Source of the DNA: a virus
DNA: 20,396 nucleotides
IMG/VR virus record: IMGVR_UViG_3300025151_000392
Coordinates: 1-20,396 of that record
Strand: one strand, 5' to 3'
Shown here piece by piece: positions 11,201 to 20,304 of the stretch. The position numbers were made by a program, and so were the translations under genes. Within the stretch, counting starts at the first letter, position 1; every line of letters starts with the position of its first letter. Below the pieces are notes generated by a model. It saw nothing but the letters and a program-made list of their open reading frames with translations, searched no databases and had not been told where the DNA came from.

Positions 11201-12274
11201 GATTTGATCTATTTCTTTTAACTTCTTTTCTGCTGCAATCTTTACAGCTTCACGTCCAACTCCAGGTTTCATGCCTGTGGTTTCTGCAAACAAAAAATCA
11301 TTCAGCGTATCAAGTACCTGCGACTTGTCTTGATCATTGAACAATCCTTCGTTCTTGTTCACAAAAGACAGAGCGTTCTCCATCTTCTCGACAGCTTGTC
11401 TTGCTTGAGAGTTCTGAGCCGCTATCTGAGTTACCCGCATGGCATCGTATTGAGCCGTGAACCTATCTGGCAACTCGCCTTGCTGAGTCAAATACTTACG
11501 ACCAACCTTCTTGAGACGATCTACCTGTCTTTGCATGAACGTAGGGTTTTCAAGGTCTGGCCTTACACCAACAGCACTAAATGGCGTCTCTGGATCTCTA
11601 ATAGCTTGAGCCGCAGCCTTTGCAAAATCTGTACGGCCAAGAGCGCCAAGCCCTGCGCCAACAGTCTTTGCGCCCAAAGATGCAATAGCGGGTACGCCAA
11701 GGATTACAGCAGCACCTTCTGCGCCTACACGCAAACGATTGGAAAGGTTGGCGGCAGAAAGCTCTGCACCAGATAAGTCTGATGTATCTATTCGCTTGGT
11801 GGGTCCAGCGTCAAAAAAGTCGCCAAGGGTTTCAACATCTGGTGTGGTGGCAGCTATATCTGCACCGACTGTTGCGCCAAGCTTCCCCACTGATCCAACG
11901 CCTTTAACCGCTTTAGCAGCGAGTCCACCAGGAGCAGCGAACTGAGCGATGAATCGAGAGGCTTTGCCTATCTCGGTTTGAGTTTCAGGCTTGTACTTGT
12001 TAAAGAAATTTCTTACAGACTGAATGCTTTCTTCGTCAGCACCAAGAAGCTCCATAGGCAATGTGGTGATGCCCTCTGTCGCGCTGACAAGGCCAGCGCC
12101 AATGCCTCTGCCGATATCACCTATGGCGGATACGTCTTCTTCGCCTAGCTGGGCGCCACGCTCTACAATTGGATTTTCAGCAGCCCATTCAGCCGCTCTG
12201 CGGGCAGCATAATCGGGATCGTCGGTGCGAACATTTATTGTTCTGCCACTTCCGTCAGGTACGGCTACTATCAT
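8231..12274 (-). CDS. Very large internal virion / DNA-ejection-type protein (1347 aa)
   Basis: The largest gene in the window. The N-terminus (MIVAVPDGSG, then YAARRAAEWAAENP at 22-35) is a short segment typical of phage ejected virion proteins. Gly/Ala-rich hydrophobic stretches occur at about 55-78, 183-212 and again near 910-935, as if the protein could enter a membrane. The middle is helical, with a segment near 680 (SPITQIRNATTASFFAL) and a later one (VPEAIKRLRQLPFGNF) of a kind I have seen in other large phage virion proteins. The last 80 residues are Ala/Gln/Pro-rich. No lysozyme or protease motif is obvious. Size, composition and place after other internal proteins suggest a P22 gp16/T7 gp16-like role by analogy only. 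Start ATG overlaps the previous stop as TAATG. Confidence 0.7.
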   Translation of the reverse strand: MIVAVPDGSGRTINVRTDDPDYAARRAAEWAAENPIVERGAQLGEEDVSAIGDIGRGIGAGLVSATEGITTLPMELLGADEESIQSVRNFFNKYKPETQTEIGKASRFIAQFAAPGGLAAKAVKGVGSVGKLGATVGADIAATTPDVETLGDFFDAGPTKRIDTSDLSGAELSAANLSNRLRVGAEGAAVILGVPAIASLGAKTVGAGLGALGRTDFAKAAAQAIRDPETPFSAVGVRPDLENPTFMQRQVDRLKKVGRKYLTQQGELPDRFTAQYDAMRVTQIAAQNSQARQAVEKMENALSFVNKNEGLFNDQDKSQVLDTLNDFLFAETTGMKPGVGREAVKIAAEKKLKEIDQIIAQNTPKSLFGNRKDLSLFDGARDLRAQIDGLSTSVKDILEDGLQSDESKNALIEAIGNNKTFYGMRLYRALKDTNYSPTAEQAELAVEELVKSSRGLDEASQLDEAQARELLNSMIQGNFNNAKMQPRDVVDSATLKGVSQGMLKGRKLDDLPAVRDFLGEYTGAKDVVMRFRPERIRARDIGEQEAGLRTKMVETVDIMSKHIAKAEYYKNLIDYNAKLPDGAKFIFDTIPPNAKLGDYSRVGAEAGNPLGEITASQKARFGPLAGKYIKNEYKTALEGGSDVFDLSKGNIPLYSTFLGLKGMSQIAKTVYSPITQIRNATTASFFALANGNVGGGKSLANSVSTIFSNLNQRLTGPGKANTTLAERQNYYNELVDLGVINTNAKIGEFESLLNDAAEGTGLGSGVTGKLFKKAQGMQNGFAAKLYQASDDVWKTYSFEMELGRLENIFAKNPNTALPVSDPRNFTEFGPVIRPSELTPEQLKIAMKREAAEIVKDTVPNYARVPEAIKRLRQLPFGNFVAFPAEMIRTSGNILGRSIKELASESPELREIGMKRLAGLVSVNAAIPASLVKAGTLLTGADQEQIDAYKRSMAADWDRNSTLIPVATDKNGKVTDFYNFSYTNPYDYVGRPAAAVFNAVNNGITKEEDLSTIAFNASLGEGGAAREFFSPFMSEAIVTEKALDILRNNTTFNRPIYRETDTLGTKFGKSFAHFADGLMPGFSPVDITTSPTSIAPGSLSFTLRDFPRAVASVSIGDAELGVSKQGYRLDPAQEFAEALTGVKSIKPRTERVLYYRALEAARNVRDAAGIFNQVAKTRGNVDAETTTQAFITANEQRFKALRDLNMAIEDAKTLGLTNSEIIKPLKEAKTPNLGMVMSGRFKAFFPSSETIKIALRGNENKLSNPLDMGAIGEQLAQFQGAAFRPKAQAEAQAARAEALQAAPSPQSAPQSGPAQPSTAPVAPQMPSLFNRASQFLRQQEEEKLMGGS

Positions 12275-13692
12275 TAGTCAATATCATCAGAGGGAGCGGC
12301 TGCAACCCCAAGGCTAACTCTTGCGTCTTCAGGAAGCCGGTAACCAGTTGCCGCTTCAAACTGTGCAATTTGTTCTGGAGTAACACTGCCAGCAGTATCA
12401 ACAGCCTCTGAGAATAAGGTCATGAATTCATCTCTAGGTGTTGCTTGGTTTGAAAGCAAAGAAATAATTTCATTGTCAGCAAGATCTGTTGTTTCTTTCA
12501 AGAACTGATAGTTGCGGATTAAGGCAGTATCATCAGGCTCTCTCTGCGCCTCAAGCTGCTTGTACTCCTCTTTGCCCAAGGTGAAGTCGCTGAAGAAGTC
12601 ACGCGGCACAAAACCTTCTGACGGCTGAGCCGCTTTAGCTAAAGCATATCTGGTAGCTGGATCTTGCAAGCCTTCAAGCACTCGACTGCCTGCACCCTTC
12701 AACATATCAAGGAAGGTTTGAGGTTTTGCTGTTTCTGTATCATCTCCAACACTTTCAGTAACAACAACAGGTGAAGGTACTTCAGCAGCTTCGGGTGGAG
12801 TTGGGCCAGAGATAAGTTCTGACAGCGCACTTATCTCTGGCGTTGCCATAAACCTATCGTATTCTTCTTTTGTAATTCTTCCTGCTCTTAAAGCCGCATC
12901 AAGAGCGGCGCTTAACCCAGAACTCAAATAATCTGTGCCAAATGCCAGATCTGTTGCGCCAGCGCCAAGTCCTGCAATCCCTGCGCCTTTCGCGGTGGAT
13001 TTTATTCCACGACCTACGGCCCTGACCGGCGTTGTTACCCTTGACGTTGCTGATGAAACGGCGTCCTTGGCACGAGCAACTCTGCCCAGGGCAGGCTTGG
13101 GTTTAGTCGGGACAATCGTTGTGCCTTGAATGTCCCTTTGGCTCATCACCCTTTTGCCAGAAGGTGGTGCAGCAAGATCCTCTGCGCTCATTTTGGCGCT
13201 AGGCTTCGCCTTTGGCTTGAAACCTTTAACTCTTCTTAATACTGGGTGAAGCTGCATCAGTGCAGTTATTGCAGCAGTGGTAAGAGCGCCAGAACCAGCG
13301 GCAGTAAATGCTTCCTCTGTGGTCATTTTTTTAAGTGCTTCATAAAGCTCGGGCGATATGGAATCTTCAGGGTTTCTAAGAAAGTCTCCAAAGCCTCTAA
13401 CTTCTTCGGCCAAGTCACCAACAAAGTCACCCTCTGCATACCCACGAATAGGCGCAACGCCTGCCATGATGCCGCCACCTTGGCGCATCTGTGGTGTTTG
13501 GAACATGGGTCTGTTCATGATTTCGTTGTACATCATGCCACCTTGATTCATCGCGTTTGCTTCTGACAGCGCAATTGCTATCGCCTGCTTTGGATTTGTT
13601 ACCTTTTTACCCGAACCGCCAGACTTGAGATCGCCCGCTTTGAACTCTCCCATGACCTTGCTGATCTTCTTTTCACGTTTGCTTTTGGCCAC
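12274..13692 (-). CDS. Ejection-type virion protein with N-terminal DUF6496-like segment (472 aa)
   Basis: The N-terminus resembles the short phage segment I know as DUF6496: KVMGEFKAGDLKSG, then KQAIAIALSEA about ten residues later. It is followed by a Met/Gln-rich linker with GVAPIRGYAEGDF, which recurs in phage internal proteins. Hydrophobic Gly/Ala runs (around 130-150 and 235-270) alternate with basic linkers; the C-terminal third is helical and acidic. The best start is GTG at 13692: CAAAGG (13704-13699) is six bases before it, whereas the TTG at 13698 would touch that site. This start overlaps the end of the 752-aa gene by 20 bases. Its stop overlaps the 1347-aa gene's ATG. Probably packaged with and ejected alongside its neighbours; the exact job is unknown. 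Confidence 0.65.
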   Translation of the reverse strand: MAKSKREKKISKVMGEFKAGDLKSGGSGKKVTNPKQAIAIALSEANAMNQGGMMYNEIMNRPMFQTPQMRQGGGIMAGVAPIRGYAEGDFVGDLAEEVRGFGDFLRNPEDSISPELYEALKKMTTEEAFTAAGSGALTTAAITALMQLHPVLRRVKGFKPKAKPSAKMSAEDLAAPPSGKRVMSQRDIQGTTIVPTKPKPALGRVARAKDAVSSATSRVTTPVRAVGRGIKSTAKGAGIAGLGAGATDLAFGTDYLSSGLSAALDAALRAGRITKEEYDRFMATPEISALSELISGPTPPEAAEVPSPVVVTESVGDDTETAKPQTFLDMLKGAGSRVLEGLQDPATRYALAKAAQPSEGFVPRDFFSDFTLGKEEYKQLEAQREPDDTALIRNYQFLKETTDLADNEIISLLSNQATPRDEFMTLFSEAVDTAGSVTPEQIAQFEAATGYRLPEDARVSLGVAAAPSDDID

Positions 13693-15931
13693 GGTCAACC
13701 TTTGAATAATCTACACGATAGTAGCCGTCTTCACCCATGAGTACGGCTGAAGGATCAACCTTGATTAACTCTTGAGCCATGACACCCTCAGTCGGGTCAT
13801 CAATACCCATTGCCTTTGCAGTGTCATTCCAAGTCCATGTGTACCAACCAACACCCGGCTGAACCTCATCAATCTTCATCACGTTTTCTTTCAAGCGAAT
13901 GTCAGAAAAGAATGGCGCTACTGTGGCCGCAACATTAGCGACTTTCGAGAACGTGCTTGGCTTTTGATAAGCTTGATTTTGATTAGAGCCGACACCGTAT
14001 CCGCTCGTGTATCCAGGCATAAACTGATTGCCTTGGCCAAGGATCTGCATGCCTCGCTGTAGTCTCATAAACGGCTCATCAGCCATTTGAGTGCCAGCTT
14101 TGTACTGAGCATCAAGCCCGCGTTGCTGTATGCCCCTGCCTGTTGCACCAAGGCCAGCGAGTGTACCAATCTGCCCAGTCAGCATGTCGTAGCCTTGTTG
14201 TCCTAAGCCAGCAATACCTTGAGCGCCTGAACGCATACCTTGCTGCCCAGCTTGATAGGCGCTTAATGCATCACCAAACGCTCCACGGGTCATCCTGTCC
14301 ATGCCACCCGCTGCGCCTTGGAAGCGAGCCATTTGATCCCCAAAGATACCAGAACCAAGCTGTTGACCAGACTGGAAGTCTCTTGCCAAACCAGAAGCGA
14401 TATCTGCGCGTTGTCCAGCTAGACCGCCAATACCTTGTTGAGCCTGTAACCCAAGGGCGCCACCCTGTTGAGCCATCTGGCCAGCGTACTCTTGAGCAGT
14501 CATGCCCAGTTGAGCAGCCCGCTGAGCAAGATCGCCTTGAGCCTGACCCGCCTGCAAGCCCATCTGGCCTCGCTGTTGAGCCAACCGACCAGCCAGTTCT
14601 TGAGCCGATATACCCATCTGTGCAGCACGTTGCTCAATATCTGCCTGAGAAGTAAGTCCGCTTAAACCAAGCTGGCCACTTTCAAGAGCGCCACGCTGTG
14701 CCAGTTGCTCTGCAGACAAGCCTAGGTTAGCTGCCTGCTGTGCAGCACTGATGCCTGTCTGAGCGCCTGCTTGGCCCAGAGAGCCAGTCAGTTGAGCAGC
14801 CTGCTGCCTACGCCCTTGTGCCTGCTCAAACGCCTGCTGAGCGGCCTGTTGAGCCTGCTGGAAGCCTTGTGAGCGCAACTCGGCGCCAGTCTTAGCTTGT
14901 TGTTGAAGGACATTGCGACCAATCTCAGCCTGAGCTATGGCTCCACGAGAGCCACCAAACGCACCAGAGCGAACCGCTTGATCACGCGCAGCAATCTTTT
15001 GCTGTTCACCCAAGCGCGCAATCTCGGCTTGTTGAGCCTCAATAACATCTCTGTTGAACGGGTCCATGAAGCTGCTTACTGATGAGGGGTCAAACTGCTC
15101 ACCTGTTCCTGCAAGACCAGCAATACCTTGAAGCGCAGTAGATCTACCCATTTCGCCAGCAGAGCGAAGATCCTGTCCCGCCATTTGTGTCTGCATTCTG
15201 GCGCGTTGTGCAGCATCCATGGCGCCTTCTTGAGCGCCACCAACCTGACCCATGATTCCTGAACCGGCACGCCGCATAGCTCTTTGGCCGATTCTAGACT
15301 CTAGACCAGAACCAATTTCTGCACCGCGCATCCCTCTCATTGCAGAAGCAATATCTTGACGTATGTCCCTACCCGCAGTGGCTAAGCCAGCTTGGCCAAT
15401 GTCAGCCTCTCGGCCAGTCGCCCTAGCAGCATCCATCATGCCTCTTTGAGCTATAGCCGCTTCTCGGCCCATGCCCATTTCAGCGCCACGGATATCCCTA
15501 GACGCATCCCTCATCATGGCGCGGGCTTGTTGATCCATAAACTGTGCGCCCATGCGAGGGTCATAACCACGGGTACTTTGCTCGTACAAAGCTCTAGCGC
15601 GTGGGTCTGAAAAAGCACCAGCAGATCTAGGGTCAAACCCTTGCGCTGCTCTACGATACATATCTTGTGCTTCAGCCAACTGACTGCCAAATGCACCAAG
15701 GCCACTGGCTAAATTCCTAGCTTGAATCTCCTGTGGCGAAAGGCCAGCAACTTGCTGTATGGGAATCGGTATTTGTCTGCCAATCATCCCGTATTCAGGA
15801 TTGAAGTAAGCATCCAGCATTTGCCGTGATGCCATTTCCACGGCAGGATCAGAATAGGTTTGGCCAGCTTGAGGCTGAACTGTCGGTACTGATGTTTCGA
15901 CTTCTTTAGTTTTAGAGCTAAATAACCCCAT
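13673..15931 (-). CDS. Repeat-rich virion protein with C-terminal S74 self-cleaving chaperone domain (752 aa)
   Basis: Three parts are visible. Residues 99-300 hold three copies of a [FY]DPx5FxDx3R motif. Residues 285-345 match a segment common in phage virion proteins, SFMDPFNRDVIEAQ followed by RSGAFGGSRGAIAQAEIGRN. Residues 398-505 are three 36-residue tandem repeats rich in Gln, Ala and Gly, probably helical. Residues 676-745 are an Peptidase_S74-type intramolecular chaperone: SDIRLKEN has the S676 and K681 spacing of the autocleaving dyad, and MAQELIKV and GYYRVDYSKV complete the pattern. S74 domains usually trimerise tail fibres or spikes and then cut themselves off. Here no receptor-binding domain is seen, so the domain may instead fold an internal or tail-lumen protein. 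Start ATG overlaps the previous stop (TAATG), with AGGAAGG five bases before it. Confidence 0.8.
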   Translation of the reverse strand: MGLFSSKTKEVETSVPTVQPQAGQTYSDPAVEMASRQMLDAYFNPEYGMIGRQIPIPIQQVAGLSPQEIQARNLASGLGAFGSQLAEAQDMYRRAAQGFDPRSAGAFSDPRARALYEQSTRGYDPRMGAQFMDQQARAMMRDASRDIRGAEMGMGREAAIAQRGMMDAARATGREADIGQAGLATAGRDIRQDIASAMRGMRGAEIGSGLESRIGQRAMRRAGSGIMGQVGGAQEGAMDAAQRARMQTQMAGQDLRSAGEMGRSTALQGIAGLAGTGEQFDPSSVSSFMDPFNRDVIEAQQAEIARLGEQQKIAARDQAVRSGAFGGSRGAIAQAEIGRNVLQQQAKTGAELRSQGFQQAQQAAQQAFEQAQGRRQQAAQLTGSLGQAGAQTGISAAQQAANLGLSAEQLAQRGALESGQLGLSGLTSQADIEQRAAQMGISAQELAGRLAQQRGQMGLQAGQAQGDLAQRAAQLGMTAQEYAGQMAQQGGALGLQAQQGIGGLAGQRADIASGLARDFQSGQQLGSGIFGDQMARFQGAAGGMDRMTRGAFGDALSAYQAGQQGMRSGAQGIAGLGQQGYDMLTGQIGTLAGLGATGRGIQQRGLDAQYKAGTQMADEPFMRLQRGMQILGQGNQFMPGYTSGYGVGSNQNQAYQKPSTFSKVANVAATVAPFFSDIRLKENVMKIDEVQPGVGWYTWTWNDTAKAMGIDDPTEGVMAQELIKVDPSAVLMGEDGYYRVDYSKVDRGQKQT
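14417..14740 (-). repeat. Three tandem 36-codon repeats inside the 752-aa gene
   Basis: Residues 398-433, 434-469 and 470-505 align without gaps. Each begins QxAAxxG or QRAAxxG, then has a [ILM][ST]AxxxAxx block, and later a [GA]x[LM]GL segment. Repeats 2 and 3 are much more alike than either is to repeat 1, suggesting a recent duplication of one unit after an older one. At DNA level the copies are diverged, so they should be stable. Confidence 0.8.
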
Positions 15932-17115
15932 TACGCCTTCCTCATTGCCTTCTCACCAGCCCTCTGCAACGCATACATCATGCGTGCGCCCTCTCTTCGC
16001 TGGTCAGCTTTAGAGCCGTTTGCGCCACTAAGCTTGCCTACTCCGCGAACAGCTTTTGCATTTACTACAAACTCGCCATCACTGAGCATGGCAGGTATGT
16101 CATCAGATGTTTCTGTCCCTGGACCAGAAATAGGGCCGTTCATGCGTGGATATTCAACATCGCCTCCATCAGCGTATTCAAGCATGGAGAGGTCGCCCAT
16201 TTCATTAAGTGCGGATGTGCCCCCAGGAGGTCTCCCTTTGGCGAGATCTGTTATTCCACCAACTATGGTTTTTACATCTGCACCAAGCCCACCTGAAGGT
16301 TTCTTTCCTGTCTTTATGAACTCGATTAACTCTTCACGAGTCATGTCTTCTATGCGTTTTCCAGAAAGAGCGCCAATACCACCAACCCCAGCCCCAGCCC
16401 CAGCCCCAGCCATGTTCGCGTTGTAATTCTGCATGCCTTTTAAAGCAATATCTTTGAGGCCACCCAAGCCCTTCGCTGCAGCGCCACCAAGGGCACTAGC
16501 CCCTTTGGCAAGAGCGCCTCCCGCTGCGGCAGCACCACTGCCGATTGCTGACATCAAGCCGCCCAAAAACATTTCTTGTGGTTGCAAAGAAGCGATGCCG
16601 CCTTGGGCCAGCCCTATAGAACCAATACCAATATCGCCTATTGCATCAGAAATGTAATCTTCAAAGCTTTTAAAAAGAGGCAGGCCTAACTCCGCTCTGT
16701 CCCTATTAACATCAATCAAAAGTTCGTCTTGAACGCTTTCAAGGGCTTCTTGATCAAGATCATTTACGCCTTGTTCGCCAACAGAAGTGCCGTCTGGATA
16801 TTGTCGGATAACTTCTGGCGCGGTGCCAATCGGGACATAGCCGCTAGGAGGTTGTGGCGCCACAAGAGGCCCCCCGATGTCTGGAGCCATTGTTTCGTAG
16901 TTAGCGTATTGAGCACCAGGCATTCTCTGATAGCCAAAGGAAGACGCCATGGGGTTAACCATACCTGGCGCTAAAAAGCTGGTACTGCGTGCAAGTGCAG
17001 GATTTATTTGTCCAAGAGGACTAGGGGCAAATCGATTGATAGAACCAGGTTGGTTGAGAACCTCCATAGTTCTTTGTTTTGATTGCTCTCTTAATTGTTC
17101 CGTGGTTGCCGACAT
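15931..17115 (-). CDS. Virion-associated protein with C-terminal SDDIPAMLSDGEFV motif (394 aa)
   Basis: An Ala/Gly-rich protein. The first 130 residues are Pro/Gln/Ser-rich and probably flexible; residues about 130-165 are acidic and helical; 185-255 alternate Gly and Ala with hydrophobic runs; and the C-terminus carries GPISGPGTETSDDIPAMLSD at 327-346 followed by GEFVVNAKAVRGVG. That C-terminal signature recurs at the ends of phage proteins encoded among tail or ejection genes, but its function is not known to me. A run of alternating Ala-Gly in the middle is encoded by a perfect hexanucleotide repeat. The ATG is one base beyond the upstream stop, with GGAAG seven bases before. Likely an internal virion protein or assembly factor. 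Confidence 0.7.
   Translation of the reverse strand: MSATTEQLREQSKQRTMEVLNQPGSINRFAPSPLGQINPALARSTSFLAPGMVNPMASSFGYQRMPGAQYANYETMAPDIGGPLVAPQPPSGYVPIGTAPEVIRQYPDGTSVGEQGVNDLDQEALESVQDELLIDVNRDRAELGLPLFKSFEDYISDAIGDIGIGSIGLAQGGIASLQPQEMFLGGLMSAIGSGAAAAGGALAKGASALGGAAAKGLGGLKDIALKGMQNYNANMAGAGAGAGVGGIGALSGKRIEDMTREELIEFIKTGKKPSGGLGADVKTIVGGITDLAKGRPPGGTSALNEMGDLSMLEYADGGDVEYPRMNGPISGPGTETSDDIPAMLSDGEFVVNAKAVRGVGKLSGANGSKADQRREGARMMYALQRAGEKAMRKA
16386..16409. repeat. Perfect hexanucleotide repeat, four CCCCAG units
   Basis: Four exact CCCCAG copies (plus a partial fifth) lie within the 394-aa gene and encode the alternating Ala-Gly run. The unit is a multiple of three, so slippage would add or remove Ala-Gly pairs without breaking the frame. 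Confidence 0.85.
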
Positions 17116-17116
17116 A

Positions 17117-17473
17117 TTAACACTTCCACCTGCGCCTAGCCTGACGCAATCTTGAATTAGGATCCTTTGCCGCCTTCGGGAACTTCTTCATCTGACCAGC
17201 AGAACGAGCGCAAAAAGACTTTCTGCGTTTCGCTCTCTTGCCCGTAGGCTTATCTTCTGTTACAGCCGTCTGCAGTTTACTACCAGGATTTGCTTTGCGA
17301 TAGGCCTTTACACCCGCCTTTGTCATGCCAGCACCTTCCTTCGTTGGAAGGTAATTAGCTGATTTGCCTTTAGTTGTTTTTGGTATTGGCTTTTCGCGCC
17401 TGCGCTTAGCGGCCTTAGATCGGCCACCAACAATGCCACCTTTTTCAAACTCTTCTGCAAAACGTCTAAACAT
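17117..17473 (-). CDS. Small very basic protein, DUF6321-like (118 aa)
   Basis: 118 residues, about one third Lys or Arg. The recognisable part runs from KSANYLPTKEGAGMTKAGV at 37-55 through RKANPGSKLQTAVT at 59-72 and GKRAKRRKSFCARS at 78-91 to a C-terminal RRRWKC. I associate this segment with a conserved small phage protein domain of unknown function (I believe DUF6321). C88 lies in a C-A-R-S motif also seen in the two genes upstream, and a second Cys is the last residue. The charge suggests DNA contact, for instance inside the capsid or in the ejected complex, but this is inference. The ATG overlaps the stop of the preceding gene as TAATG. Confidence 0.75.
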   Translation of the reverse strand: MFRRFAEEFEKGGIVGGRSKAAKRRREKPIPKTTKGKSANYLPTKEGAGMTKAGVKAYRKANPGSKLQTAVTEDKPTGKRAKRRKSFCARSAGQMKKFPKAAKDPNSRLRQARRRWKC

Positions 17474-17811
17474 TAAGAATACCTTGTTCTCTTCCGTCGA
17501 TCAGGCATTACAGCCCCACAACCTCGATGGTTTCTTTTCGTGATAAGACCGCCATCTTTCGCAAAGGTTTTTACCATGGTTGGTTTGCCACCAACTCCTT
17601 GCCTCTTAGATCTCTTTCGCTTGACCGCGCTAGATCGTTCAGAAGCTGTCATGGCTTTTGCCTTTGACCTAGGCACGCACTTTGGGTACTTGCGGCCACT
17701 GCTTTTTGTGCTTGATCGACCACAAGCTTGAAACTTGCCGTCTTTCTTGGGCGCTCCAATGTCAACCCAGTCGCCTTTTGATCCCTTGCCAAACCACTCT
17801 TTCAAGCTCAT
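17473..17811 (-). CDS. Small basic Cys-containing protein (112 aa)
   Basis: 112 residues with WFGKGSKGDWVDIGAPKK at 6-23, then QACGRS at 28-33, RKYPKCVPRSKAKAMT at 40-55, and a C-terminal RNHRGCGAVMPDRRKRT. Three cysteines (C30, C45, C98) sit in short basic motifs, which would suit a metal site or disulphide. Proteins with the WVDIGAPKK and YPKCVP motifs recur in environmental phage contigs next to tail genes; I do not know their function. Translation is probably coupled to the previous gene: its ATG overlaps the upstream TGA by four bases (ATGA) and there is no strong ribosome site of its own. Confidence 0.75.
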   Translation of the reverse strand: MSLKEWFGKGSKGDWVDIGAPKKDGKFQACGRSSTKSSGRKYPKCVPRSKAKAMTASERSSAVKRKRSKRQGVGGKPTMVKTFAKDGGLITKRNHRGCGAVMPDRRKRTRYS

Positions 17812-18071
17812 ACAAGCTTCGTCCTTGGGCGCTTGCCAGACAACATACCGTTAAAGCCTCTGGGGTCAATCAACCTAGCGCGTTTAGCAGCAAAGCCACC
17901 GCCATTCATGTTCCTAGGCTTTGATCCCTTGAAGTCTTTACGCTTCACTCCAGAAGGATCTTTTATCTTTCCTGCACATATCTTGCTGGCATATGCATTT
18001 GCATACGCCGAAGGATACACATCAAATTTTCGTTTAGCCGCAGCCTTTCCTCTAGCACACAGTTTTGTCAT
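17808..18071 (-). CDS. Small basic Cys-containing protein (87 aa)
   Basis: 87 residues, opening with MTKLCARGKAAAKRKFDVYP at 1-20, followed by SAYANAYASKICAGKI at 21-36 and a Gly/Arg-rich tail (NGGGFAAKRARLIDPRGF). The two cysteines, C5 and C32, flank a predicted helix. The pattern is one I have seen repeatedly in environmental phage contigs, always small and near structural genes, without a known role. It is joined to both neighbours by ATGA overlaps, and no clear ribosome site precedes its ATG, so expression should follow the 114-aa gene. It could be a DNA-bound minor virion component. Confidence 0.75.
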   Translation of the reverse strand: MTKLCARGKAAAKRKFDVYPSAYANAYASKICAGKIKDPSGVKRKDFKGSKPRNMNGGGFAAKRARLIDPRGFNGMLSGKRPRTKLV

Positions 18072-18412
18072 GAACCTACACTCACTACTATATCGCCGTT
18101 AGTAACCACTTGAACCGTCCCAACCTGCCCTGTGGCCTCAAGAGGGCTAGAAACAGATTCCGCTTCCGTACTGACACTCAACCATTCGTTACCAGTATAA
18201 ATCTGCAAAGAAGAGATTGAAGTATTCCAAATAACATCGCCAGCTTTAAACTGCAATGTATCTCTTTTGTTGCTCGTATACTGCGGAGTCGCATCAGGAT
18301 CAAACGAACCTAAACTTAGCTCAAGAAGCCGTACCGTCTTGTTAAATGTACTCCCATCAACTCCACCTTGGTCAGGGACAAAAGGTAGCGTACCTTTTAG
18401 TATCCTGCTCAT
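18068..18412 (-). CDS. Beta-rich hypothetical structural protein (114 aa)
   Basis: 114 residues with alternating polar and hydrophobic positions and many Ser/Thr/Val residues, which suggests beta strands (RLLELSLGSFDPDA, LQFKAGDVIWNT, LQIYTGNEWLSV, then VGTVQVVTNGDIVVSVGS). No family recognised. It lies directly after the gp10-like gene, where P22-like phages carry the tail needle and head-tail genes, but it is too short and too beta-rich for a coiled-coil needle. It may be a small tail or decoration protein. Its ATG overlaps the upstream TGA by four bases and its own TGA overlaps the next ATG the same way. Confidence 0.65.
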   Translation of the reverse strand: MSRILKGTLPFVPDQGGVDGSTFNKTVRLLELSLGSFDPDATPQYTSNKRDTLQFKAGDVIWNTSISSLQIYTGNEWLSVSTEAESVSSPLEATGQVGTVQVVTNGDIVVSVGS

Positions 18413-20304
18413 CTTCGACCATTAGGCTGTAAATCTAATCGAGTGCCGCCCACTCTAAAGCCCACCCCTAAACGATCCCCCATGGCGGCGTTGTCATCAG
18501 ACTCAAAACGAACAACCGCTTGGCGCCCTCTTGCTCTCGTGTTTATCTTGGTCGTAGTCGAAGTAAACGAAGAAGTTTGATCTGTTGTTAAAGCATCTCC
18601 TGGGTAGTTTCTAGCCTTCAAAACAAAATTGATCGATTGGGTATTACCGGAATCTCCTGTGAATTTGACATCAGGGATACATCTACGAATGAACTGAAAC
18701 TCTTCCCCTTCACCCAAATCAAAGTCACCGCTTTCAACAAAAACGTTGTCCATGGGCGCGCCATCAGCATCAAACCCAGTTTCGTGCGAATAAATGTAAT
18801 TGTTCCCATCTGTATAACCAGCGGCTCTAGGAAAGCTTTCAAGCCCTTCATCAAGCCATGCGGTTCTGGATAAATTCCCGATGGCCCACGTCTGTTCAAC
18901 GTAATTGTAGGTGACATATCTGTCTATAGCCGTGGAATCAGCAGAACAATAAAACCAACCAACCTCATCAAACTGTTTGTTCAAAAATCCAAACACCTGA
19001 AACGCTTGATCTTCGTTAAAGTTATCAAACACATACGCTCTAACGGTGCATGGGACTGCTTGAACCGCGCCTTGATAAGAGTAAAACCCTTTCTTGTCCA
19101 TCCAGAAAACACCTGCAGGCGTGTTCACTGAGGCGTTAGGTCCAATCAAGCTCACACCTTCATTGATTAGATTAAGGCCGAAGGTTAATGGTGCGCCAAT
19201 AAACTGAAGGCTATAAAGAGCAACATCAGTCCATATTAGAGTTTCTTGCCGCGCTCGTAATCCGCCAATTATTTGTGAACCTGCAGAACAACGTAAAGAA
19301 CCAGCAGTGTTAGTTGATGTAGGGAACCATTCGGCTGGGTTCTCTTGATCAGAAAACGCAACTAAAAGTGGGTCAGAAGAACCTGTTCTTGCTGTTGCGC
19401 TGTCGTTTATCGGATCAGCGCCAAGGGCAATAACGTGTCGGTCAATATCAGAAACCAGAACTTGAAGGGCAACCGTTGGCGTGAAGTTGGCGCCCGACAA
19501 CTCTGAAATGTTTACAGCACGATCTGTGCCCAAAGTCTTTGCGCTAGTGTCCCAATAATAAATTCCACCTGCCCGCACATTGGCAATCAAGTCTTCACCA
19601 AAACTATCCATAGACCAAAGCCGAAGCTGATTTAAGGAACTCAATGCGCTGGAAGAACCCCAAGAGCCAACGCTCCAAGCGCCAGATCCCCAACCTGTAC
19701 CAGAAACAAACACATCAAGGCCAACATTTATTTGGTAAGCCCCTACAACGGAACTGCCGCCGTTCCCAGTATCGCTGCTGTTCGCAGTGACTGTTGCTCC
19801 AGATGTGTCCTTTGCTGTAATGACGTATACGGAAGTACTAGTGATTGAGTCAATTTCGTATTCTTGATTAAGAACCGCAGCCGTTACATTGCCGCCTAAA
19901 GAAGATGCCCCACTGAAAGTAACAAAATCCCCTTTGGCAGCACCATGTGCCGCATCTGTTACATTGATAGAACTAGAACCATTTGTGGCCCCAAAAGTCA
20001 CATCTCCAGCAGCCGTGGTAGACCTTATTGGTGTAATATCGCTATAGCTGGCACCTGACTGTATATAAAGCTTGGTTCTCGTTCCAAGCCCCAGTAGTTT
20101 TGTGCCATCCAGAGAGGTCCAGCCCAACAACTTGCGCCCAGTCCCGTTGAAAGATGCAGTTATGTATTTGACCCAACCGCCTATCTTTTCTGGCAACCCC
20201 TTGCGAAACCGCATTAGATTTCCGTCGAACCATCCACCTTCTGCTGTATAGCTGGTGCCCTCTTTGTTAATCCCTGGATTGAAGATAAACTTCTGCAAAG
20301 GCAT
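18409..20304 (-). CDS. P22 gp10-like head-tail closure (packaged-DNA stabilisation) protein (631 aa)
   Basis: The N-terminus PGINKEGTSYTAEGGWFDGN followed by LMRFRKGLPEKIGGW (about residues 30-44) is typical of phage proteins related to P22 gp10, and the repeated short strands such as GWTSLDGTKLLGLGT fit a beta-propeller-like fold. Residues about 100-178 look like an inserted beta domain (INVTDAAHGAAKGDFVTFSG, then a strand-rich end SVYVITAKDTSGA), found in several phage tail proteins. The remainder is all beta with Trp-rich repeats (WFPTST, WTDVALYSLQF). P22 gp10 is about 470 residues, so the extra length is largely this insert plus longer loops. Start ATG overlaps the previous stop (TAATG), with GGGGAG about ten bases before it. 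The fold call is by resemblance, not a search. Confidence 0.65.
   Translation of the reverse strand: MPLQKFIFNPGINKEGTSYTAEGGWFDGNLMRFRKGLPEKIGGWVKYITASFNGTGRKLLGWTSLDGTKLLGLGTRTKLYIQSGASYSDITPIRSTTAAGDVTFGATNGSSSINVTDAAHGAAKGDFVTFSGASSLGGNVTAAVLNQEYEIDSITSTSVYVITAKDTSGATVTANSSDTGNGGSSVVGAYQINVGLDVFVSGTGWGSGAWSVGSWGSSSALSSLNQLRLWSMDSFGEDLIANVRAGGIYYWDTSAKTLGTDRAVNISELSGANFTPTVALQVLVSDIDRHVIALGADPINDSATARTGSSDPLLVAFSDQENPAEWFPTSTNTAGSLRCSAGSQIIGGLRARQETLIWTDVALYSLQFIGAPLTFGLNLINEGVSLIGPNASVNTPAGVFWMDKKGFYSYQGAVQAVPCTVRAYVFDNFNEDQAFQVFGFLNKQFDEVGWFYCSADSTAIDRYVTYNYVEQTWAIGNLSRTAWLDEGLESFPRAAGYTDGNNYIYSHETGFDADGAPMDNVFVESGDFDLGEGEEFQFIRRCIPDVKFTGDSGNTQSINFVLKARNYPGDALTTDQTSSFTSTTTKINTRARGRQAVVRFESDDNAAMGDRLGVGFRVGGTRLDLQPNGRR

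Follow-up and report, generated by a model that had tools for sequence, protein, structure and literature searches.

The DNA analysed here, referred to as the window, is an IMG/VR virus record of 20,396 bases, from a marine phage, whose left part holds replication genes and which carries a structural block on the minus strand. Along this block the genes, all on the minus strand, follow in this order: a 631-aa gp10-like protein (18409..20304), of the packaged-DNA stabilisation or virion structural type; a 114-aa protein (18068..18412) with weak PHROG matches to tail-fibre or virion-like proteins; three small proteins, P1, P2 and P3, which together occupy positions 17117-18071; a 394-aa protein (15931..17115) with a tape-measure-type C-terminal motif; and a 752-aa virion or DNA-ejection-like protein (13673..15931) that bears a C-terminal S74 chaperone domain. 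The small genes are real open reading frames of 87, 112 and 118 aa which, as an earlier note on this DNA had described, overlap in a row: P1 overlaps the 114-aa gene directly upstream by 4 bases, P2 overlaps P1 by 4 and P3 overlaps P2 by 1, an arrangement that resembles a translationally coupled operon. Two further features of the block can be recorded. The C-terminal stretch of the 394-aa protein (15931-17115, minus strand), SDDIPAMLSDGEFVVNAKAV, matches the terminal parts of many tape-measure proteins, which are far longer, and a 474-aa protein (12274-13698, minus strand) beside the ejection-like genes has an N-terminal DUF6496 module, a small basic domain (38.6 bits against a cut-off of 24).

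P1 (17808..18071, minus strand) has a net charge of +19 and cysteines at positions 5 and 32, and its module, M1, with the pattern KRKFxVYPSAYANAYxxxxC, corresponds to the N-terminal part of DUF5872. P2 (17473..17811, minus strand; net charge +25) has cysteines at positions 30, 45 and 98, and its module M2 (residues 1-84) corresponds to the C-terminal part of the same domain. P3 (17117..17473, minus strand; net charge +29) has cysteines at positions 88 and 118, the latter being its last residue, and contains a DUF6321 domain, the profile match spanning 17126-17332. These charges bear out the earlier description of the three proteins as basic. Approximately residues 88-112 of P2 form a C-terminal tail, RGCGAVMPDRRKRTRYS (17476..17550, minus strand), a mobile add-on that is found on P1-type proteins in other phages. 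With its pattern RGCGAVMxxRRKxT, the tail is a mobile mini-module with one cysteine that other phages have exchanged between proteins of the P1 and P2 types (L003:5798-5992; L246:4733-5113).

The assignment of the three proteins to families relies on profile searches. P3 scores 50.9 bits against Pfam DUF6321 (PF19846), for which the curated cut-off is 28.5, and belongs to this family, in which two cysteines are invariant across 31 aligned members; it differs in being a stand-alone protein of 118 aa, not the terminal part of a large protein. P1 and P2 themselves give no match to the DUF5872 profile (PF19197) even at an E-value of 1, and their membership is seen through relatives only: P1-type relatives match positions 1-38/39 with 37.6 and 39.0 bits, and P2-type relatives match positions 48-112 with 54.1 and 53.3 bits (cut-off 27.5). 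Since the two sets of relatives cover successive parts of the profile, P1 and P2 together are read as a split DUF5872, and a natural P1-P2 fusion matches positions 10-103. The two half-domains and their order are those of the Pfam entry, whereas in the window they are encoded by two overlapping genes instead of one chain; fused halves occur at six IMG/VR loci. These profile matches give good support to P1 and P2 as the two halves of DUF5872, each encoded by a gene of its own, and to P3 as a DUF6321 protein. NCBIfam searches with the three proteins returned no matches. In the open-access literature that was searched, DUF6321 is nowhere named and DUF5872 is named by a single paper, which reports it in the alga virus CpV-BQ1 (PMC12085832).

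The earlier note had drawn attention to a C-[AG]-R-[SG] signature followed by an aromatic residue and proline, and had proposed that the three proteins may be diverged copies of each other. The signature is literally there, as CARG, CGRS and CARS in P1, P2 and P3, with the aromatic-proline pair (YP, YP and FP) 15, 13 and 11 residues after the cysteine, respectively. As a family trait it does not hold: in non-redundant sets of modules, C[AG]R[SG] occurs in 93% of the P3 type, compared with 9% of the P1 type, which mostly have CPRG or no cysteine at this position, and 10% of the P2 type, which mostly have CGRK. The full signature, including [FYW]P, is found in 8 of 90 P1-type, 61 of 145 P2-type and 111 of 141 P3-type modules. 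By chance, C[AG]R[SG] arises in 0.8-1.6% of shuffles of each protein itself, a figure to be read in the light of a pattern picked post hoc, and 1.6% of shuffled triplets have some common C-anchored 4-mer that is equally loose. The feature that does stand far above chance is that the three families keep a conserved neighbourhood.

Descent from one ancestral cysteine protein would account for the superficial C-x-R...[FY]P likeness in the window proteins, for the automatic alignments that in some cases place P1 on P2, and for an hhalign probability of 10.9% between small P1 and P2 alignments. When the profile-profile comparison that the earlier note had suggested was carried out by hhalign between deeper module alignments, with 60 column-shuffled decoys for each pair, the scores were like those of the decoys, which scored as high in 24/60, 23/60 and 19/60 cases. 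In addition, most P1 and P2 relatives are devoid of the signature, P1 and P2 match separate parts of DUF5872, and the cysteines lie in non-equivalent places, the outcome that the earlier note had named as speaking against shared ancestry. Because the signature is mostly absent from P1 and P2 relatives and the profile scores equal those of decoys, shared ancestry is unsupported; it was rejected as an explanation, and we regard it as extremely improbable. On the evidence of their sequences, P1, P2 and P3 are three unrelated modules.

Scans of IMG/VR confirmed at least 551 relatives of P1, 447 of P2 and 557 of P3. P2 is present in 76 of the 80 viral contigs fetched with P1, always in the order P1-P2 and on one strand, and the two are fused in six ORFs. 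In contigs with full context, P2 is present in 35/35 and P3 in 28/35. P3 can also be found alone, with no partner in view in 50 of the 79 contigs fetched with it, many of which are short. Isolates that carry the set include HTVC023P, HTVC027P, 023Pt_psg01, P-SCSP2 and C75C1, each time in the structural region and in different settings: 3' of the capsid gene, in the interval between scaffold and capsid, or between portal and GroES. In uncultured phages, further neighbours are portal, terminase or fibre genes. The pelagiphages HTVC023P, HTVC027P and 023Pt_psg01 have the same three families as separate small genes of the structural region, annotated only as hypothetical; P1-P2 and the P3 gene of HTVC023P are separated by about 4 kb. 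As for expression timing in HTVC027P, its split genes gp49, gp50 and gp52 are unnamed in the section on temporal profiling. Conservation of the cassette across phages is well supported by these gene orders. The modules are absent from the podoviruses P-SSP7 and Syn5 in the scaffold-to-capsid region, and for this reason they look accessory. In one contig (L131:4001-8269) the cassette adjoins terminase large subunit and integrase genes; given this setting, temperate phages probably carry it too. When 84,980 species genomes of bacteria and archaea were searched with P1 and P2, just 38 loci were returned; they are dispersed among unrelated taxa, most of them in contigs of marine assemblies, which suggests that they are viral sequence.

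The three families differ in their cysteines. P1 and P3 have two cysteines and no histidine each, and P2 has three cysteines and one histidine; in the P2 family only Cys30 and Cys45 of the three are conserved, and these are invariant. P1-type modules have both cysteines in 36 cases, neither in 54 and a single one in none, nine cyanophage modules with the pair at shifted positions having been scored as 'neither'. In P3-type modules the main pair is invariant, and an extra pair is complete in 8, missing in 133 and single in none. Gain and loss of cysteines in pairs is typical of disulfides. Metal binding, which the earlier note had also put forward, is not favoured. If P1-P3 were small zinc-binding proteins with cysteines as metal ligands, the cysteine pairs kept by the P2 and P3 families would be explained, as would a further pair that adjoins a histidine in one P3 subtype; nevertheless, two cysteines and zero histidines leave P1 and P3 short of one zinc site per chain, and many P1-type modules are without any cysteine, which makes this reading very improbable. 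A zinc finger, whose sites need four or more Cys/His ligands, was rejected, as P1 and P3 have too few and only two of the P2 cysteines are conserved. The paired gain and loss, together with the shortage of ligands in P1 and P3, therefore favours disulfides over zinc sites for the cysteine pairs.

AlphaFold2 models show an all-helical core in P3 and, in a fused relative (L158), a helical hairpin at the P1 part, flanked by its two cysteines; both are of modest confidence, and the folds are tentative owing to a mean pLDDT of 68 and a pTM of 0.41-0.44. The P3 model has no match in the PDB, and its sole credible match in BFVD, a viral protein of 561 aa with 59% identity, is related to it by sequence. 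For the P1-P2 fusion model, PDB matches are limited to E > 6, and no DNA-binding fold was recognised in the fold searches of either model. Searching solved structures by sequence gave zero matches for P1 and P3; for P2, marginal matches to Csy4 (E 0.04-0.05) were judged compositional and dismissed.

Relatives of the three modules are fused in T4-like cyanophages. The T4-GC119 protein of these phages (e.g., S-SCSM1 ORF29, S-RIM2 gp101 and S-SM2 gp109; compare PHROG 727 and 3477) has P2-, P1- and P3-type modules and a fourth cysteine module in a single chain, the P3-type module forming the very end of the chain in almost all cases. In HMM searches run against a small target set, the P3 modules are strongly supported, at 5e-25 or better, and the P1 modules moderately, at approximately 1e-6 to 1e-8; P2 has weaker support, 5e-8 in S-SCSM1 and 7e-5 to 3e-4 in S-CREM2 and S-RIM2. 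Independently of this result, P2 matches PHROG 727 and 3477 near their N termini and P3 matches them at their C termini. The cyanophage gene shares with the window the same three module types, a C-terminal P3 and a location in the late structural region, but it encodes a single chain of ~300-900 aa with linkers and extra cysteine modules, whereas the window has three genes, none of which unites P2, P1 and P3. In S-CREM2 two proteins share the modules between them: gp137 carries P3, and gp160 carries P2, the fourth module and P1. The fourth module, CWxGYxxxGxxxxxGKxxxxC, recurs in fused cyanophage proteins (L008, L009, L010 and L256) and also ends a P2-type protein (L077:1695-2150).

Some of these carriers have been detected in virions. 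The proteome of CsCl-purified S-CREM2 virions contained gp137 with 4 and gp160 with 7 unique peptides (PMC10665884); the coverage of gp137 was 4.1%, and the report does not give the positions of the peptides. For S-SCSM1, 45 proteins were identified by mass spectrometry (PMC9602691), and ORF29, which holds all modules, has the database label virion protein. The DUF6321 carrier of S-SZBM1 is missing from the 30 proteins detected for that phage, the label of the S-SM1 T4-GC119 protein is still hypothetical, and no virion proteomics was found for the window phage or for podoviruses with split genes. The role in the virion at which the earlier note had hinted from gene position is supported through these homologues and through the structural-region location in unrelated phages. 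The proteins might alternatively be intracellular helpers of packaging or of nucleoid takeover, basic proteins on DNA in the infected cell that merely stick to virions. The carrier gene does lie between the terminase subunit genes in T4-like cyanophages, the cassette of L131 adjoins terL, and peptide coverage was low. Against this stand the detection of two carriers in a single preparation of purified virions and the structural-region setting in every phage examined, and we consider such an intracellular function distinctly unlikely.

The internal proteins of T4 provide a parallel. They are small, basic, several per phage, packaged with the DNA and trimmed by the prohead protease (PMC9026906). 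Each is present in ~300 copies per head, and DNA binding is assumed; packaging takes place via an N-terminal capsid targeting sequence (CTS), which the prohead protease cuts off, and the proteins enter the host with the DNA. P1-P3 resemble IPI, IPII and IPIII in being small and strongly basic (87-118 aa, +19 to +29), and one cyanophage relative, the DUF6321 carrier of S-SZBM1, starts with MKTFKQYITEA, comparable to MKTYQEFIAEA in T4 ipII and ipIII. Beyond this start no likeness to the T4 proteins was seen, and no CTS was found on P1, P2 or P3. In 16 cyanophage loci, seven ORFs have CTS-like starts, each of them either a carrier or at most two genes away from one, and four long stretches (176 kb) among these loci have none. 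An association of CTS-like starts with module carriers in cyanophages is suggestive only, because most of the other loci are short stretches centred on the carrier. The prohead-protease-like motif [ILVMF]xE[GASDEKNR] occurs at most 12 residues upstream of 26 of 40 module starts, compared with 8.6 (sd 2.6) expected at linker positions, in a set of mutually related fused proteins and with a cleavage-site motif picked after inspecting the data.

Two side observations concern the same cyanophages. A gene of ~105 aa at or near T4-GC119 (L007:5213, L009:5356, L249:3210, L252:3175 and L255:2718) has a T4-CTS-like start, e.g., MKTFKQFMSESVNI, and is a candidate for an unrecognised internal head protein. 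S-SZBM1_194 (L249:463-2586), of 707 aa, has an internal YREFIAEG, which closely resembles the final part of the CTS of T4.

Presence in the virion could also mean a place other than the interior of the head, at the neck, the tail or the surface of the capsid, where the proteins would be small connectors or serve for decoration and their disulfides would stiffen the particle. Detection in cyanophage virions gives no location, the cassette often adjoins portal, head-tail, terminase or fibre genes, and in the window it is preceded by the gp10-like gene. Nevertheless, the very high positive charge, the CTS-like starts and protease-like sites of the cyanophage relatives, and the variety of neighbours, none of which is constant as an assembly partner might be, render this placement somewhat unlikely.

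The explanation that we prefer, to which we give an even chance, is that the split DUF5872 and DUF6321 cassette encodes disulfide-capable basic proteins packaged in the head, similar to the T4 internal proteins. The cassette of P1, P2 and P3 would be a late one, coupled in translation, and its three unrelated modules would be small, mostly helical and strongly basic, with a conserved cysteine pair in each. All three would be made late and enter the head together with the DNA, where they may help to neutralise or condense it, and they would exit with it at ejection, like IPI-III of T4. Inside the particle, the cysteine pairs would be disulfide-bonded. In T4-like cyanophages the modules would be made as one chain, probably cut apart by the prohead protease, and in the window phage the same parts would simply be encoded as separate genes. 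By analogy, the binding of packaged DNA by P1-P3, one of the functions that the earlier note had offered, is plausible; the location inside the head, the disulfides and the cutting by protease are what we infer from the evidence above. A bolder extension sees in the cassette a viral counterpart of protamines. Unrelated basic modules, a kit shared by ocean phages and perhaps by giant algal viruses, would coat the genome once it is packaged; disulfides would lock them in oxidising seawater, and the reducing cytoplasm of the host would free them after ejection. Podoviruses would deliver the kit as separate genes, T4-like cyanophages as a polyprotein cut by a protease. We hold this broader picture to be quite improbable.

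The modules occur in pelagiphages and cyanophages, which are among the most abundant phages of the sea, and are currently listed as hypothetical proteins or DUF entries. Taken together, the split genes, the fusions and the virion proteomes turn three unknowns into one hypothesis, that these are internal head proteins of phages whose cysteine pairs are sensitive to redox state, for which existing mass-spectrometry data would be worth re-reading.
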